Source: Sulfitobacter sp. SK011 (GTDB lineage Bacteria > Pseudomonadota > Alphaproteobacteria > Rhodobacterales > Rhodobacteraceae). Taken from it: DNA of 64,000 nt. The position numbers and the translations under genes were made by a program. The stretch is from the NCBI RefSeq assembly GCF_003352065.1, contig NZ_CP025803.1:2025574-2089573 (forward strand), given 5' to 3'. Of the stretch, positions 1 to 4,994 are shown piece after piece. The notes under the pieces are model-generated. The model worked only from the letters and a program-made list of their open reading frames with translations. It was not told the origin of the DNA and searched no databases. How positions within the stretch are numbered: the stretch's first letter is position 1; each line of letters starts with the position of its first letter.

Positions 1-164
1 CTGTCTTGGGATTTGATCAATATCTGCGCATCGGACCGCATGAGTGCAAAGATCACGCCGTCCGCATAAATCCCCATGCCGCCGAACATGCGGCGGGTCG
101 TGATATCTGGCAAGGCGCTGAACAGTTCTTTGGCAAAGGCGATATCCGCCTCAGCCAGGCTCAC
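1..164 (-). CDS. TfoX/Sxy N-terminal domain protein (partial)
   Basis: This is the N-terminal part (about 54 residues) of a gene that runs off the left edge. Read on the minus strand from a GTG at 164-162 it begins VSLAEADIAFAKEL, followed by TRRMFGGMGIYADGVIFAL. The RRMFGGMG segment is the hallmark of the TfoX N-terminal domain family, small proteins related to Sxy of Escherichia coli. In Rhodobacteraceae their role is unknown. The GTG overlaps the TGA of the upstream A-type carrier gene (GTGA), so the two are probably translationally coupled. The C-terminus is not in the window. Confidence 0.8.
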   Translation of the reverse strand, partial: MSLAEADIAFAKELFSALPDITTRRMFGGMGIYADGVIFALMRSDAQILIKSQD

Positions 165-523
165 TTGGTGGCGAGCGCGTCGTCGAACTTGATCGACTCT
201 CCGCAGCCGCAGGCCTCGGTCACATTGGGGTTGCGGAATTTGAAGCCGGATTCGAGCAACGTCGTTTCATAGTCAATCTCGGTGCCGAAGAGAAACATCT
301 GTGCCATCGGCGCGATCATCACCCGCGCGCCATCCTGTTCGACAACTTCATCGTTGGGGTCCGTCGCTTCGACGTATTCCATGGTGTATTCCATGCCTGC
401 ACAGCCGCCCTTTTTGACGCCGATGCGCAGCCCTGCATGGCCTGCCGATTGCATGAGCTTTGCAATCTGGCTGGCGGCCTTTGGGGTCATGGTGACCGCT
501 TGTTTGCCGGGGATGCCGAACAT
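161..523 (-). CDS. A-type iron-sulfur cluster carrier (HesB/IscA/SufA family)
   Basis: This 120-residue protein belongs to the HesB/IscA/SufA family, which receives Fe-S clusters from a scaffold and hands them to apoproteins in the cytoplasm. The three cluster-ligand cysteines are visible: Cys41 in KKGGCAGMEY, and Cys105 and Cys107 in EACGCGES near the C-terminus. Length and spacing match the family. It lies downstream of sufT (2138-2500) on the same strand, which favours a SufA-type role, but two unrelated genes (SatD-like and DUF3307) separate them. Its stop overlaps the start of the TfoX-like gene. The family is clear; the exact paralogue (sufA, iscA or erpA) is not. Confidence 0.93.
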   Translation of the reverse strand: MFGIPGKQAVTMTPKAASQIAKLMQSAGHAGLRIGVKKGGCAGMEYTMEYVEATDPNDEVVEQDGARVMIAPMAQMFLFGTEIDYETTLLESGFKFRNPNVTEACGCGESIKFDDALATK

Positions 524-578
524 GGTGTGTACTCCTATGCGCCTAAGATAGGCGCGGCGCGGTGCATTCTCAAGCGGT

Positions 579-1280
579 TCACAGCGATTTCATAACCGTC
601 TGGGTGATGAAGGCAACAACCAGCGCCCAGCCAAACGAGGCAAGCGTGCCGATGATGACATATTCACTGATCGCGCGGTCCTTTGAGACGGTGTCGAACC
701 GCAGGATGGATTTGGCAGCGATGAGGAATCCGATGCCTGTCGGTTCCCCGATGATCACCATCAGATAGATCAGTGTGCGTTCCAGAATGCCGATGATTTT
801 TCCTGCATTTTCAAGGCCCTCCGAGTTGTCCTTAACGGAGAAACTTGCCATCAGGTAACCGATTGCCGGAAACCCGGCGCGGGTGGCGACGATAAGCCCG
901 GTTGTGAAAACCGCAATCATCAAGAAGGTATCGGTATGATCTGCCCAATATCCCATCGCCACGGCATCGGGGATGTACCATGCGGCGACCGCAATGGTCA
1001 CCAGATGCGCCATCTGATCGCTGAGATAGGCCCAGAGGGTGTCGGGAAGTTTATAGGTTTTGACCGCATCGATCACAAAATGGATCACCGCAATGATAAG
1101 CGCCAGTTGCAGACTGCCGCCCAGCGCAATCGCCGTGCAAAAAAACACGATGGCAGCATGTAGCGCCAAGACCGCTGGTCTACGTTTATGTTTGATGATC
1201 CAATTGGTTTGAAACACAAAATCAGCGAATACATGGCCGGTGAGCAGCGCAATTGCCGTTTGCATGAAAAGGTCGGGCAT
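579..1280 (-). CDS. DUF3307 family integral membrane protein
   Basis: This 233-residue protein is rich in hydrophobic segments, about six to seven by eye. It opens with a helix containing the conserved GHVFADFVFQT segment followed by the basic stretch KHKRRP, then LALHAAIVFF and VIHFVIDAVKTY. The polar residues buried in helices (GH..ADF, LHA, HFVIDAVK) are typical of DUF3307 proteins, whose function is unknown. It lies directly downstream of a SatD-like gene, and a palindromic operator array (1359-1414) sits in the 133-bp gap between them. DUF3307 and SatD genes are recalled as frequent neighbours in other bacteria, so the pair is likely one functional unit with this protein as the membrane partner. 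The biochemical role is unknown. Confidence 0.8.
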   Translation of the reverse strand: MPDLFMQTAIALLTGHVFADFVFQTNWIIKHKRRPAVLALHAAIVFFCTAIALGGSLQLALIIAVIHFVIDAVKTYKLPDTLWAYLSDQMAHLVTIAVAAWYIPDAVAMGYWADHTDTFLMIAVFTTGLIVATRAGFPAIGYLMASFSVKDNSEGLENAGKIIGILERTLIYLMVIIGEPTGIGFLIAAKSILRFDTVSKDRAISEYVIIGTLASFGWALVVAFITQTVMKSL

Positions 1281-1358
1281 GTGGGGGTCCGATGCGGTTT
1301 GCGGGTCAATGTTTGGTGGTGGAAAGGGGCATGAGGTGAAAACGGGGTGGGCATGATC

Positions 1359-1418
1359 ACCTGAAATACAGGTTAATTAGCCTGTTAATGCAAAATACAG
1401 GTATATTAACCTGTTATT
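1359..1418. promoter_or_regulatory. Array of five alternating half-sites forming two tandem palindromic operators
   Basis: Two near-identical 24-bp blocks start at 1366 and 1395 (period 29 bp). Each holds ACAGGT, six bases, then GCCTGT or ACCTGT: ACAGGTTAATTAGCCTGT at 1368-1385 and ACAGGTATATTAACCTGT at 1397-1414. An extra half-site ACCTG at 1359-1363 forms a third dyad (ACCTG-AAATA-CAGGT) with the first ACAGGT. The array overlaps the stop codon of the SatD-like gene and lies 79 bp or more upstream of the DUF3307 start. It looks like an operator for a dimeric DNA-binding protein controlling DUF3307. The SatD-like protein, which has a C-terminal helix-turn-helix, is the obvious candidate, but this is inference. 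Confidence 0.7.
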
Positions 1419-2022
1419 GATCCTCCTCCATCACGTCACAGACTTCCAGCAGGCGCAGGATGCCACTGCTGTCTATTTGTTGCTGTACGGTTTGCTGGGT
1501 CAACCCCAGTGTCGCAGCAACCTCCATTTGGGTGGGGCCGGCAGGCGGCAGCATCAGATAGGCAACTTCGGATTGTCGGCGGGTCCAGCCTTTGATGATG
1601 TGATCCGCTAGGGGCAACGCGGTGCGCAGGGGCAGGGGCGCGTCAGGGGCGGACAGCAGCACGCCGCGTTTCATCCCATCAAGTGCATGACCGGAGCGGA
1701 CAAAAGCCGTGCCCTCAGCCCCGGACAGGTCATCCCCGGTGATATAACCGGTGCCCAGACCAATGCCTAAGCGGGTTTCAAACCCTTTGCCCGCCCGCTG
1801 AACCGCTGCGCGCACCGCAATTGCGGCCCGAAAACACAAGCCCGGCGTCACAGCCATTTGCCAGCCATCACCCCGAAACCGGGTCAGTGGCGCGGCCATG
1901 CCCTGCCAAGCCCCAATATCCGCGGCGGCGGCATCCAGGTTTTTGAAAATAAGCGATAATTCATCTGACGTCATGTCTGACGATTTCACAATGTCACCTG
2001 TAAAAACGGCCCATTTCGTCAT
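1414..2022 (-). CDS. SatD-like protein: cyclase-like domain plus C-terminal HTH
   Basis: This 202-residue protein resembles the SatD family. Residues 1-120 follow the order of motifs of a class III nucleotidyl cyclase domain. FTGDIVKSS (Asp10) takes the place of the first metal site, TRFRGDGWQMAV (Asp52) the place of the GDG/GDA turn, and TRLGIGLGTGYITGDDLSG followed by VRSGHALDG matches the RxGIhxG...G.aVN region. Residues about 145-190 look like a helix-turn-helix (WTRRQSEVAYL, then MEVAATLGLTQQTVQQQI). SatD was named in a Streptococcus mutans secretion and acid-tolerance locus, but its activity is not established. The gene is upstream of DUF3307 on the same strand, with an operator array at its 3' end. 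Cyclase activity, and DNA binding by the HTH, are inferred. Confidence 0.72.
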   Translation of the reverse strand: MTKWAVFTGDIVKSSDMTSDELSLIFKNLDAAAADIGAWQGMAAPLTRFRGDGWQMAVTPGLCFRAAIAVRAAVQRAGKGFETRLGIGLGTGYITGDDLSGAEGTAFVRSGHALDGMKRGVLLSAPDAPLPLRTALPLADHIIKGWTRRQSEVAYLMLPPAGPTQMEVAATLGLTQQTVQQQIDSSGILRLLEVCDVMEEDQ

Positions 2023-2137
2023 CTGTCGTCCCTCGTTTTACACAATGTCGCAGGAAGTAACGCGCCGCGCAACCGTGACGCTTGGCGTAAAGACATGGGT
2101 AAGGAAATGCAGAGGAACGACACAAGTGAGGCGGTGT

Positions 2138-2500
2138 TTACATGAACCCAAGTTCAAGCCGCGCCTCATCCGACATCATGTCCATACCCCAGGGCGGTTC
2201 CCAGACAAGGGCCACATCAACCTGTTTGACCCCGGCCAGCGGCTCAACAGCATCGGCCACCCAACCGGGCATTTCGCCCGCAACAGGACAGCCGGGCGCG
2301 GTCAGCGACATCTTGATATCAACTTCATTTTGGTCATTTATATCAATGGTGTAGATCAATCCAAGTTCGTAAATATTGACCGGGATTTCAGGGTCATAGA
2401 CGGTGCGACAGGCCTCAACAACAGCTTCGTAAAGCGGATGATCGGTCGATGACGGCGCAATCAGCGGTGTGCCTTCAAGCGGGTGTGTCTGGTCGGTCAT
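2138..2500 (-). CDS. sufT: SUF system Fe-S assembly protein (SufT, MIP18/DUF59 family)
   Basis: This 120-residue protein carries the MIP18/DUF59 domain: VYDPEIPVNIYELGLIY followed by MSLTAPGCPVAGEMPGWV with the conserved cysteine. The family matures Fe-S proteins, and SufT usually sits at the end of suf operons. The rest of a suf operon is not in the window; upstream on this strand comes an unrelated FAH-fold gene. Downstream are the SatD-like and DUF3307 genes and then an A-type carrier. The length is typical, and the ATG at 2500 follows a purine-rich AAGAGGCC stretch. Confidence 0.9.
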   Translation of the reverse strand: MTDQTHPLEGTPLIAPSSTDHPLYEAVVEACRTVYDPEIPVNIYELGLIYTIDINDQNEVDIKMSLTAPGCPVAGEMPGWVADAVEPLAGVKQVDVALVWEPPWGMDMMSDEARLELGFM

Positions 2501-2572
2501 CTTGGCCTCTTTTATGTTCCTGAGTGTTTATATAGGGTTTGAGGTGGCCGCCGTCCAGTGGGCGGCTCTGAC

Positions 2573-3415
2573 CTAGTTGGTAAAGGTCACTGACACCGCA
2601 GGATCACCCGGCAAACCGGAATAGGTGACACGCGCCCCACCTTTCATTTTGGCCGATGGCGTCAGCGGACCGAACGATCCGACACTGATCAGATCACCTT
2701 TCTTTAACGTGATGCCCTTGGACATCAGCCAAAGCACCGAATTTGCCGGGTTGCCCAGAACCGCGTTACCGGGGGCAGAGACGACCACCTCGCCGGACCC
2801 ATCGCGCAAGGTCACGATCATCTCTTCCAGCGCCAGTGCCATCGCAGCAGGATCATCAACGGCAATGCCTGCGCCCAGCACACCCAGTTTTGGGGCCACG
2901 CCAATGGCGGTGAGGGTCACCGCATTAATCGGCTCGCCTTTGGCCAACGTCATATCGGGCAATTCGATGAACGGATGCACAGCGCTGATGTTTGACAGCA
3001 CATCACCCGGTGTTGTGGCCTCGTTGATCGCGTCGTCGCCAACCACAAACACCAGATCGGATTCCACCATCGGGATCGCCCCAAATTTCGCGGGCACCAA
3101 TGCACCACTTGGCAGCATCATCTTTTCAAACAGCAGGCCCTGCACAGGTTCGCTCACCCCAAACCTTTCCTGAGCTGGCTTGCTGGTCAGCCCGGCCTTA
3201 TAGCCGATCACCGGACCCATCGTGGGTTCCAGCGCGGTTGCCAGTTTGGCCTGGGTGCAAAGCGCGTCTTCCATGGTGCCATTTGCAGTCAACGCAAGGG
3301 CCGGTTCATTGGCCGTGACAGAGGCGACAAACGCAGCGATTTCAGCATCCGTGGCGCAATCGGCAAAGGCGAGGCCGGGTGTGATCAGGGCGGCAAGTAG
3401 AACAAATGGGCGCAT
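2573..3415 (-). CDS. Exported 2-keto-4-pentenoate hydratase / FAH-fold protein
   Basis: The chosen start (3415) follows an AGGAAA ribosome-binding site and gives 280 residues beginning MRPFVLLAALITPGLAFAD, a typical Sec signal peptide cleaved after AFA. A longer reading to 3487 is possible but puts a second hydrophobic stretch in front. The mature part resembles MhpD-type hydratases of the fumarylacetoacetate hydrolase superfamily: GYKAGLTSKPAQERFG, then a VESDLVFVVGD segment and GNPANSVLWL. These enzymes are normally cytosolic and act on catechol meta-cleavage products, so a periplasmic version is unusual and its substrate is unknown. No aromatic-degradation genes are adjacent. Confidence 0.8.
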   Translation of the reverse strand: MRPFVLLAALITPGLAFADCATDAEIAAFVASVTANEPALALTANGTMEDALCTQAKLATALEPTMGPVIGYKAGLTSKPAQERFGVSEPVQGLLFEKMMLPSGALVPAKFGAIPMVESDLVFVVGDDAINEATTPGDVLSNISAVHPFIELPDMTLAKGEPINAVTLTAIGVAPKLGVLGAGIAVDDPAAMALALEEMIVTLRDGSGEVVVSAPGNAVLGNPANSVLWLMSKGITLKKGDLISVGSFGPLTPSAKMKGGARVTYSGLPGDPAVSVTFTN

Positions 3416-3493
3416 CGCAAAATTTCCTGAAATAAAGAACAATATACCCATGAGCATAATCCGACAGGCCCGCATAGCAAGCATCAACCGCGT

Positions 3494-4882
3494 TCAGGCA
3501 CTCGTTTTGCGCCGTCGCGAGGGCTGTGGTTTCACCCGCGCCTCAACCTCGTCATAAAGCTTGCCGACAATGTCTTTGCCGCTGGCCTTTTCGATGCCTT
3601 CAAACCCCGGCGACGAGTTTACCTCAAGCACCTTGGGCCCCGCATCAGAACGCAGCAGATCCACGCCTACCATCCCCAATCCAAAGGCGCGCGCGGCACG
3701 TACCGCCGTATCACGTTCGATCTTGGAAATGCGCACGACCTTGGCCGACCCGCCCCGGTGCAGGTTGGACCGGAAATCACCCTCTGCCCCGGTGCGTTTC
3801 ATCGATGCGACAACCTTGCCTGCGATCACCAGACATCTGACGTCTTCGCCTGCCGCTTCTTTCACGAAATCCTGCACCAGAAAGTTGGCCTTGAGTCCGC
3901 GAAAGGCGTCGATCACCGATTCAGCGGCCTTTTTCGTTTCCGCCAGCACCACGCCTTTGCCTTGGGTGGATTCCAGCAGTTTGACGATCAAGGGGGCGGT
4001 GCCCACCAGCGCCATCAGATTTGAGGTGTCCTTGGGCGAGGCCGCAAAAGCGGTTGTGGGCATGCCGATGCGTTTGGAGGCAAGCACCTGATGGGCATGC
4101 AGTTTATCACGGCTGGCAGTGATGCCCGCGCTGCCGTTCACGCAATAGGTGCCGATGGTTTCAAACTGCCGGATCACCGCGCAGCCATAGGGCGTGATCG
4201 ACGCCCCGATGCGTGGGATAACCGCATCATAGCGGGGCAGGCGTTTGCCATCATAATGCACTTCCGGTGCCAGCTGGTTGATCGCCATGTAACAACGTGC
4301 GGTATCGATCACCTCAACCGTATGCCCGCGCGCCTCGCCGACCTCGACCAGACGGCGGGTGGAATAGGTGTTGGGCTCCCGGCTCATCACGGCGATGCGC
4401 AGCGCCCGTTTCGGCGCGGTCTTGCGCATCGCGGCCGTATGGTAAACGTCATAGTTGAGATCAGGCTGCAACCGGCGCTCGGTGGCGGAAATGTTGATGT
4501 GTTCACTGAGGGCCTGACGCCCCAGCAACATGCGGCTCGACAGCCCCGCGCGGTTGGTCAGGGTGACGTCAATGGGCCAGCTTTGGCCCGCGACGCACAG
4601 CGTTGTCGAGATCACAAAACGCTGCTCGGATTCGCCGTTCGACGATGTCACTTCGCGGCGATCAATCAGCGGCGCAGAACAGGTGATGGAAATGTCATCG
4701 CGCCCCGCAATCGGGTGCACATTGAAACGTACCTTGGGTTTAGCCGGGGGGCCGAACACTTCGATATCATGCGCATGCAGCGCTGATGTGCGGGCCCCGG
4801 TATCAACCTTTGCCTTGATCGCCGGCAATCCCAGATCAGGCAGGGCAATCCATTCCTCCCAACCGAAGGTCAGCTTATCCAT
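3494..4882 (-). CDS. ATP-dependent zinc protease domain fused to RimK-type ATP-grasp ligase
   Basis: This 462-residue protein has two domains. Residues 1 to about 140 resemble the RimK-associated retropepsin-like 'ATP-dependent zinc protease' family ([24 protein letters not shown] with the DTGA aspartic-protease-like motif, [10 protein letters not shown]). Residues about 160-450 are a RimK-type ATP-grasp ligase ([59 protein letters not shown]). RimK enzymes add glutamate to proteins such as ribosomal S6. The two activities often occur as neighbours and are fused here. The start at 4882 is backed by GGAGA; an upstream ATG (4918) adds only a basic 12-residue tail. The substrate is unknown. Confidence 0.87.
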
Positions 4883-4994
4883 GTAATTTCTCCGATTGGT
4901 GAAGCGTCGACGTATCAAGCCGCCAGATCAGGCTCAAGCCACAATATGGAGAGAGGGCGCAGATTTGGGTCGGACTGCGGGTGCTGGCGCAGGC

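Follow-up and report, generated by a model that had tools for sequence, protein, structure and literature searches.

A SatD-like protein of Sulfitobacter sp. SK011 and the membrane protein encoded directly behind it were found to form what appears, on sequence evidence, to be a real and widespread regulator–membrane module, the DNA code of which could be partly decoded and the partner domain of which is without a name. Both genes lie on the minus strand of the analysed stretch of 64,000 nucleotides (nt) (contig NZ_CP025803.1, positions 2,025,574 to 2,089,573; hereafter the window), satD at 1414–2022 (202 amino acids) and the partner gene at 579–1280 (233 amino acids), exactly as placed in a first-pass annotation of this DNA. 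The reading favoured here, with moderate confidence, is that SatD would be a one-component transcription regulator with a cyclase-type sensor, which controls the membrane partner and/or its own operon and to which the partner signals back. It is carried by the SatD fold, the pairing of the two genes, the operators, a recognition code and a tie between SatD and the C-terminal motif of the partner.

The SatD query matched 37 of 198 family genomes, the window's own genome included. From a genome-wide scan, the best 80 of 266 relatives were kept; adding the window's own locus and those of the 36 other family genomes brought the set to 117 loci. Seven that were identical over the compared stretch were dropped, leaving 110 distinct loci; close relatives remain among them, and the counts are not independent. 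Of the 117 loci, 116 have a DUF3307 gene behind satD in the same orientation, within 200 nt in 114, implying that its position directly after the SatD-like gene is not due to chance. The exception (L060, genome G068) ends at a contig edge, where a partial partner is visible (E 3.4e-11). The commonest satD–partner gaps were −4 (27 of 116 loci) and −8 (18 loci). Long DUF3307 proteins, as defined by a search with profile A2 (E ≤ 1e-30, plus the cut copy in G068), occurred in 39 of the 198 family genomes, 37 of them the SatD genomes, with weak short matches only in 19 more. The pair was also recovered from Sphingomonas, Vibrio, Salinivibrio, Enterobacter and Segatella (Bacteroidota) plasmids and from one viral-collection contig, the upstream genes in Salinivibrio, Enterobacter, Segatella and the viral-collection contig being SatD homologs by profile. 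Co-occurrence of SatD and DUF3307 thus extends beyond close relatives, to Gammaproteobacteria, Sphingomonas and Bacteroidota.

SatD comprises a cyclase-fold domain at about residues 1–145 (1588–2022, minus strand) and a helix-turn-helix (HTH) at about residues 148–200. The motifs FTGDIVKSS, RFRGDGWQ, RLGIGLGTG and SGHALDG, in which a cyclase-like order had been recognised at first pass, are all present, and the AlphaFold2 model (37-row alignment; mean predicted local distance difference test score, pLDDT, 97.4) was of the cyclase/palm type and not of an unrelated fold. A Foldseek search of the PDB returned the class III adenylyl cyclase Ma1120 as top match (E 7.0e-5, TMq 0.48), followed by a bacterial cUMP synthase, and VIA-align superimposed the model on the catalytic domain of Rv1625c (7yz9_A) with Z 11.8 and a root mean square deviation of 2.9 over 139 aligned residues. 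Ma1120 was likewise matched by sequence profiles, with E 5.4e-4 for the SatD family profile (A1) and E 1.1e-6 for a profile of ten SatD proteins from other groups (A3); A1 also picked up three PF00211 cyclases in the genomes. Pfam Guanylate_cyc (PF00211) was not among the matches of the window SatD at E ≤ 10, and the relative L206 reached only E 0.15. Residues G9, D10, G51, D52, W54 and G111 are identical in all 110 distinct relatives. In the profile alignment, D10 (1993–1995) and D52 (1867–1869) align with the FTD and QGD motifs of Ma1120, the aspartates of which are catalytic metal-binding residues. We conclude from the model that SatD has a predicted class III cyclase-fold domain with two metal-site aspartates.

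The HTH is weak in the single protein (MarR_2 E 0.02, Sigma70_r4 E 0.15) but stands out in the family profile, whose PDB matches include the HTH of ZitR/AdcR-type regulators; the model places helices at 165–172 and 176–186. The latter is the predicted recognition helix (1465–1497, minus strand), as assigned from the model and from the covariation described below. Profile and model thereby corroborate the C-terminal HTH proposed earlier, and a sensor-type and a DNA-binding domain are combined in one protein, as in a one-component layout.

Two operator-like palindromes of 18 base pairs (bp), absent from the first-pass annotation, are located between the two genes: ACAGGTTAATTAGCCTGT at 1368–1385, with 5-nt arms and an 8-nt core, and ACAGGTATATTAACCTGT at 1397–1414, 29 bp from the first and overlapping the final base of the satD stop codon. 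These are two matches in the window versus 0.04 expected, and the pair as a whole (1368–1414, 47 bp) is unique in the genome at up to three mismatches. Across the upstream and gap regions of the 110 loci, palindromes that have perfect 5-nt arms and a total length of 18 number 198, compared with a shuffled mean of 34. Their commonest spacing among relatives is 29 bp (34 pairs), followed by 58 and 14 bp (8 pairs each). When an array was defined by one fixed rule for loci and controls, i.e., at least two like palindromes in register, arrays were found in 68 of the 110 loci, versus a single one among 550 shuffled regions and none among 105 displaced ones.

The half-site letters vary by lineage (GCAAG, TCAAG, GCAACC, ACAGG and others). 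Covariation was computed for the 68 array loci against 189 alignment columns, with the 42 array-less loci excluded, and it was found that half-site positions 1, 2, 4 and 5 covary best, out of all 189 columns, with residues 176, 177, 178 and 181, respectively. Arginine at residue 176 goes with G at position 1 in 45 of 48 loci, glutamine with A in 6 of 6, lysine with A in 2 of 3, and proline, threonine or alanine with T in 11 of 11; at position 5, C accompanies K181 in 9 of 9 loci and R181 in 2 of 2, versus 2 of 57 with other residues. In a tree built from the cyclase domain only (133 branches), five of the seven position-1 changes share a branch with a change in the class of residue 176. Outside the window's group, 6 of 13 loci carry at least two like palindromes 28–29 bp apart as judged by eye (L151, L152, L206, L219, L222, L225), and L151, L152 and L225, in which residue 181 is lysine, have the C. 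From the arrays and this helix-to-site covariation, we infer a specific DNA target: SatD very probably binds DNA at these predicted operator palindromes. The proposal of a one-component regulator controlling a membrane partner, already put forward at first pass, is thereby strengthened as far as sequence comparison reaches.

In the window's clade, the arrays occupy the satD–partner gap rather than the region in front of satD (12 loci by eye, several imperfect), which points to the partner as the probable target. A terminator scan flagged the palindrome at 1397–1414 as terminator-like; since relatives show this arrangement again in front of satD, it is read as an operator, and that copy may have a terminator role. 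No structured RNA was detected in window 1–4000 by an Rfam match at gathering score. In two further satD–partner gaps, about five degenerate palindromes at steps of about 29 bp were visible by eye (L077) and seven copies were counted by script (L102).

Repression would be expected to leave a mark on the promoter. The cores of the proximal palindromes resemble a −10 box with a mean score of 3.74 versus 3.07 for shuffled cores, none of 200 shuffles being as high; the next copy up scored 3.27 versus 3.03 and the gap palindromes 3.14 versus 2.68, while cores further out were hardly above shuffled (2.77 versus 2.67). Of 41 loci selected for a palindrome 15–24 nt before the ATG and another 28–30 nt further up, 22 have the palindrome beginning exactly at −20. 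Because 22 of these 41 proximal palindromes start at −20 and the proximal cores resemble −10 boxes, a repressor is favoured over an activator; a blocking of the −35 and −10 boxes by SatD is put forward as a suggestion.

Several observations weigh against this assignment of operators, code and repression. By the fixed rule, 42 of the 110 loci have no clear array, among them several Sulfitobacter relatives with imperfect repeats, and the window itself lacks such an array ahead of satD. Half-site positions 3 and 6 have their best columns outside the HTH, position 3 barely varying at all. With residue 181 coded as lysine or other, one of four position-5 changes falls on the same branch of the tree; with all states counted, four coincide, but residue 181 then changes 20 times. 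The rule for residue 181 is also mixed outside the window's group, where L206 (lysine) and L222 (arginine) have A in their paired copies. A joint test for −35 and −10 elements was positive for 21 of 41 proximal pairs versus 7 of 20 distal ones, a poor separation from the control, and a scan of window 1260–2160 revealed no sigma-70-like site.

The membrane partner was modelled by AlphaFold2 with a pLDDT of 94.9 and consists of helices only. The first-pass assignment to DUF3307 held for residues 10–108 (957–1253, minus strand; PF11750, 54.2 bits, cut-off 23), where H16, D20, Q24, H41, H67, D71, D88 and H92 stand out by conservation. Residues 156–228 (597–815, minus strand) form an unnamed C-terminal membrane domain with the signature G160..IG..ER(167-168)..IAAKS(190-191)..RF(194-195)..SEY(206-207)..GTLAS; this stretch had no Pfam match at E ≤ 1. 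In 398 Pseudomonadota genomes, the DUF3307 model matched 36 and profile A1 matched 24, of which 19 at E < 1e-20. SatD lies beside a DUF3307 gene in 17 of these 19 strong-SatD genomes, and a SatD of this strength is missing from 19 of the 36 genomes with DUF3307. In the two remaining SatD genomes, G575 and G482, the gene after SatD encodes a membrane protein without DUF3307 motifs that keeps AG..IG..ER...AAKS.FRFGDL...TEY..LG, and in G397 a weaker SatD (E 1.4e-10) is followed by a protein of 127 amino acids made up of the C-terminal stretch and a short lead.

A profile of the C-terminal domain alone (A4) was searched against 398 genomes drawn in the same way, the same genome handles recurring, with E ≤ 1e-10 taken as strong. 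It returned 24 strong matches, every one directly after a SatD gene (24/24), and DUF3307 was present in only 17. Nine of the 24 are rows of A4 itself (G000, G212, G299, G322, G397, G459, G482, G500, G575), another 11 belong to SatD genomes, and the last four (G413, G483, G547, G501) had shown neither a DUF3307 nor a SatD hit before and were thus found blind; in these four, the upstream gene passes the Pfam SatD model with 46.2, 47.9, 58.7 and 46.4 bits, respectively, against a cut-off of 29. Weak A4 matches (E 1e-4 to 1e-2) comprised three SatD-less DUF3307 proteins and two long frames; G444 and G400 are among the genomes with weak A4 matches, and in G325 A1 matched the HTH part only. By these sequence comparisons, the constant partner of SatD is the unnamed C-terminal membrane domain, DUF3307 being optional. 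The earlier designation of the partner as a DUF3307 protein is therefore right as to adjacency and misses the conserved core. As a separate observation, the 127-amino-acid minimal partner of L224 (4484–4867) contains a segment, DVNRDGDIDQKDQQI, resembling a dockerin/EF-hand calcium loop (Dockerin_1 E 0.0029, below the cut-off).

Conservation within the partner was scored in 107 intact proteins, three of the 110 (L060, L063, L137) being truncated or missing and left out. All 107 have S191, R194, E206 and Y207; in 16 partners from other taxa and plasmids, S191 is present in 13 and each of the other three in 16. The six long DUF3307 proteins without SatD have S191 in 0, R194 in 0, E206 in 1 and Y207 in 0 of 6 and retain all seven DUF3307 histidines and aspartates as well as K190, E167 and R168. 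Conversely, 5 of 123 SatD-linked partners (L041, L117, L206, L207, L233) have at most three of the seven DUF3307 residues and all eight C-terminal residues. Partners without SatD have thus, as judged from these alignments, lost the C-terminal signature but kept the DUF3307 signature, a double dissociation. The six SatD-less genomes gave either no match or HTH-part-only matches to the SatD profile. In a tree of the N-terminal part, the six proteins fall into two nested groups and a single loss is possible, so that SatD loss appears to amount to one or two events, not six. Other Alphaproteobacteria have, in the absence of SatD, a separate branch of short DUF3307 proteins of about 125 amino acids that lack the C-terminal domain (L208, L209, L228, L229, L230 and others).

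Lysine plus arginine average 2.96, 2.36, 1.54 and 1.80 in the partner loops 22–35, 74–83, 144–160 and 195–204, and at most 0.35 elsewhere; in loops 144–160 and 195–204, aspartate plus glutamate are about as many. Following the positive-inside rule, the signature loop thus probably faces the cytosol. Neither the PDB nor the viral structures yielded a fold match to the partner at E ≤ 0.001, the best VIA-align hit (Z 5.9 on 68 residues) is within noise for helical models, and the partner profile had no PDB sequence match at E ≤ 1. That the partner is a metal-dependent membrane enzyme would be only a guess, because no fold match is available and the idea rests on the conserved histidines and aspartates.

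The pair is flanked by a SufT-like gene upstream (2138–2500, minus strand; TIGR02945, 151.9 bits, cut-off 143.4) and a SufA-type (A-type) Fe-S carrier gene downstream (161–523, minus strand; PF01521 and TIGR00049 above cut-off). The identity of both neighbours agrees with the first-pass annotation, and its statement that the pair is inserted between them does not hold. Both suf neighbours are present at 88 of the 110 distinct loci, sufA alone at 12, sufT alone at 6 and neither at 4. Since 88 of 110 loci lie between sufT and sufA, the site is old; it is the ancestral location in this group and no insertion.

A different explanation is that SatD is mainly an enzyme, a two-metal palm nucleotidyltransferase making a messenger for the membrane partner in the manner of Pycsar or Panoptes, with an HTH that only autoregulates. 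The invariance of both metal aspartates (110/110), the occurrence of a cUMP synthase (7r65) next to class III cyclases among the nearest solved structures, the membrane location of the partner and one copy of the pair adjoining a Pycsar effector and a cyclase gene all fit such an enzyme. Class III cyclases use Lys/Glu and Asp/Cys for base choice and an Asn and an Arg for the transition state. In SatD, R48 (109 of 110 relatives) occupies the Lys position; the profile match to Ma1120 stops at about residue 99, and the base-choice residues and transition-state Asn and Arg beyond it are not recognisable, F107 (F in 102 of 110) sitting at the Asn position when the helix is aligned by eye. This active-site pattern would be no less compatible with a nucleotide-binding sensor than with an enzyme. 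The enzyme reading is further disfavoured by the lack of any match to PADLOC-DB 2023 at E ≤ 10, a library that may lack Panoptes, and by the location of 88 of 110 loci at one suf-gene place and not in a defence island. An enzyme of this kind is therefore considered doubtful.

Much of the same evidence bears on a toxin–antitoxin or phage-defence unit, in which the membrane protein would be a toxic effector and SatD its repressor and neutraliser. The tight gene overlap, the palindromes ahead of the operon, the patchy presence in the family (37 of 198 genomes) and the plasmid copies, one of them beside Pycsar and TIR genes, are what such a unit would display. Its fixed place between suf genes is not, nor is the persistence of DUF3307 proteins without SatD in six genomes, though with an altered C-terminal motif; together with the missing PADLOC match, this makes the unit quite improbable. 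The suf neighbourhood itself might be functional, with the pair serving Fe-S cluster assembly, as its sufT–sufA location at 88 of 110 loci could suggest. However, the suf-flanked loci are, as judged by kinship or record title, nearly all from Rhodobacterales and represent one place shared by descent, and the annotated regions around the pairs of Sphingomonas, Vibrio, Segatella, Enterobacter and Salinivibrio show different neighbours, so that a function in Fe-S assembly is regarded as highly improbable.

For the one-component regulator favoured here, the following course of events is conceivable. As we infer from the fold, the class III cyclase-type palm domain of SatD probably serves as the sensor, binding a nucleotide together with metal. 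The HTH would bind the 18-bp palindromes at their 29-bp spacing, very probably in dimeric form. With an array ahead of satD, SatD would regulate its own operon; with one in the satD–partner gap, as in the window's clade, it would mainly regulate the partner. The C-terminal domain of the partner, on the cytosolic face, would most likely signal back by binding SatD or altering its ligand, and the DUF3307 part, the conserved histidines and aspartates of which resemble a metal site, may be an optional add-on. An extended version, unlikely in our estimation, makes SatD both messenger synthase and transcription factor: it would make or hold a nucleotide, the state of which the C-terminal domain of the partner determines at the membrane, in a complete signalling loop; if true, it would add a new class of membrane-to-DNA signalling, found in at least Pseudomonadota and Bacteroidota, and also on plasmids. 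In the favoured reading, a named family of unknown function would become a regulator with readable DNA sites, the targets of which are searchable by computation, and the cyclase fold would gain a likely role as transcription-factor sensor. The correct partner label would be the short C-terminal membrane domain without Pfam match, the database label DUF3307 marking an optional part.

Among known families, Pfam SatD (PF16264) has the same layout, with GD..GD cyclase motifs and an HTH. The window protein itself did not match this model at E ≤ 10 and is part of a divergent branch recognisable by RxRGDGWQ or RxGGDGWQ; the name SatD is therefore justified only via its relatives. L221 (G299), found by A1 at E 5.6e-26, passes PF16264 with 33.9 bits, as do the four blind finds beside the same membrane domain, and the window SatD is accordingly regarded as a homolog outside the Pfam model. 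In 150 genomes of the phylum, the Pfam SatD model gave one match at E ≤ 0.001 and none above the cut-off, with none in the window's own genome. Searched with the SatD protein itself, that genome gave two weak matches elsewhere (E 0.08 and 0.3), one of them a tetrapyrrole methylase. With class III cyclases such as Ma1120 (4wpa), SatD has the fold, the beta1 Asp and the hairpin GD in common; it differs in its second domain half, in which base-choice and transition-state residues are unrecognisable, and in its fusion to an HTH. Pycsar cyclases and the mCpol of Panoptes are palm-fold nucleotide proteins encoded beside a membrane effector, a layout resembling that of the SatD pair, but SatD carries its own HTH and operators. 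MarR-type regulators such as AdcR and ZitR have palindromic operators and the same type of HTH; in SatD, by contrast, the sensor is a cyclase-fold domain, and a membrane partner is found at every checkable locus.

SatD has been described as the "secretion and acid tolerance" family with reference to the Streptococcus mutans sat operon (PMC10326533), and the original sat operon paper is among the references of PMC10326533 and PMC12077213. In the mCpol paper (PMC12657230), as covered by a term search, SatD, DUF3307 and helix-turn-helix are not mentioned. The open-access literature covered by searches for SatD with DUF3307, SatD with nucleotide cyclase, DUF3307 and the SatD family does not describe such a system, and the open-access listings contained nothing relevant on cyclase–HTH one-component regulators. 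The widespread putative switch of SatD and its membrane partner is thus undescribed within this literature.

With regard to mobile elements, a scan of the viral_contigs collection with A2 revealed one relative (L235), a SatD–partner pair with neighbours that look mobile-element-like by eye; a scan with A3 confirmed none. A phage origin was rejected: in tblastn searches of phages, the window partner found nothing better than weak, partial matches (best E 0.2), and the L222 partner had no match at E ≤ 1e-3. On the Sphingomonas insulae plasmid unnamed3 (L151/L236, 69191–76681), the SatD–DUF3307 pair is flanked on one side by genes for a cyclase, an E2-associated cysteine-rich protein and a Pycsar effector and on the other by TIR and ImmA/IrrE genes. 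Further along the window, 2573–3487 (minus strand) encodes a protein weakly similar to 2-oxopent-4-enoate hydratase (TIGR03220, below cut-off) with a start that by eye is signal-peptide-like, and the product of 3494–4918 (minus strand), as judged by eye, seems to join a protease-like N-terminus to a RimK-type ATP-grasp part.

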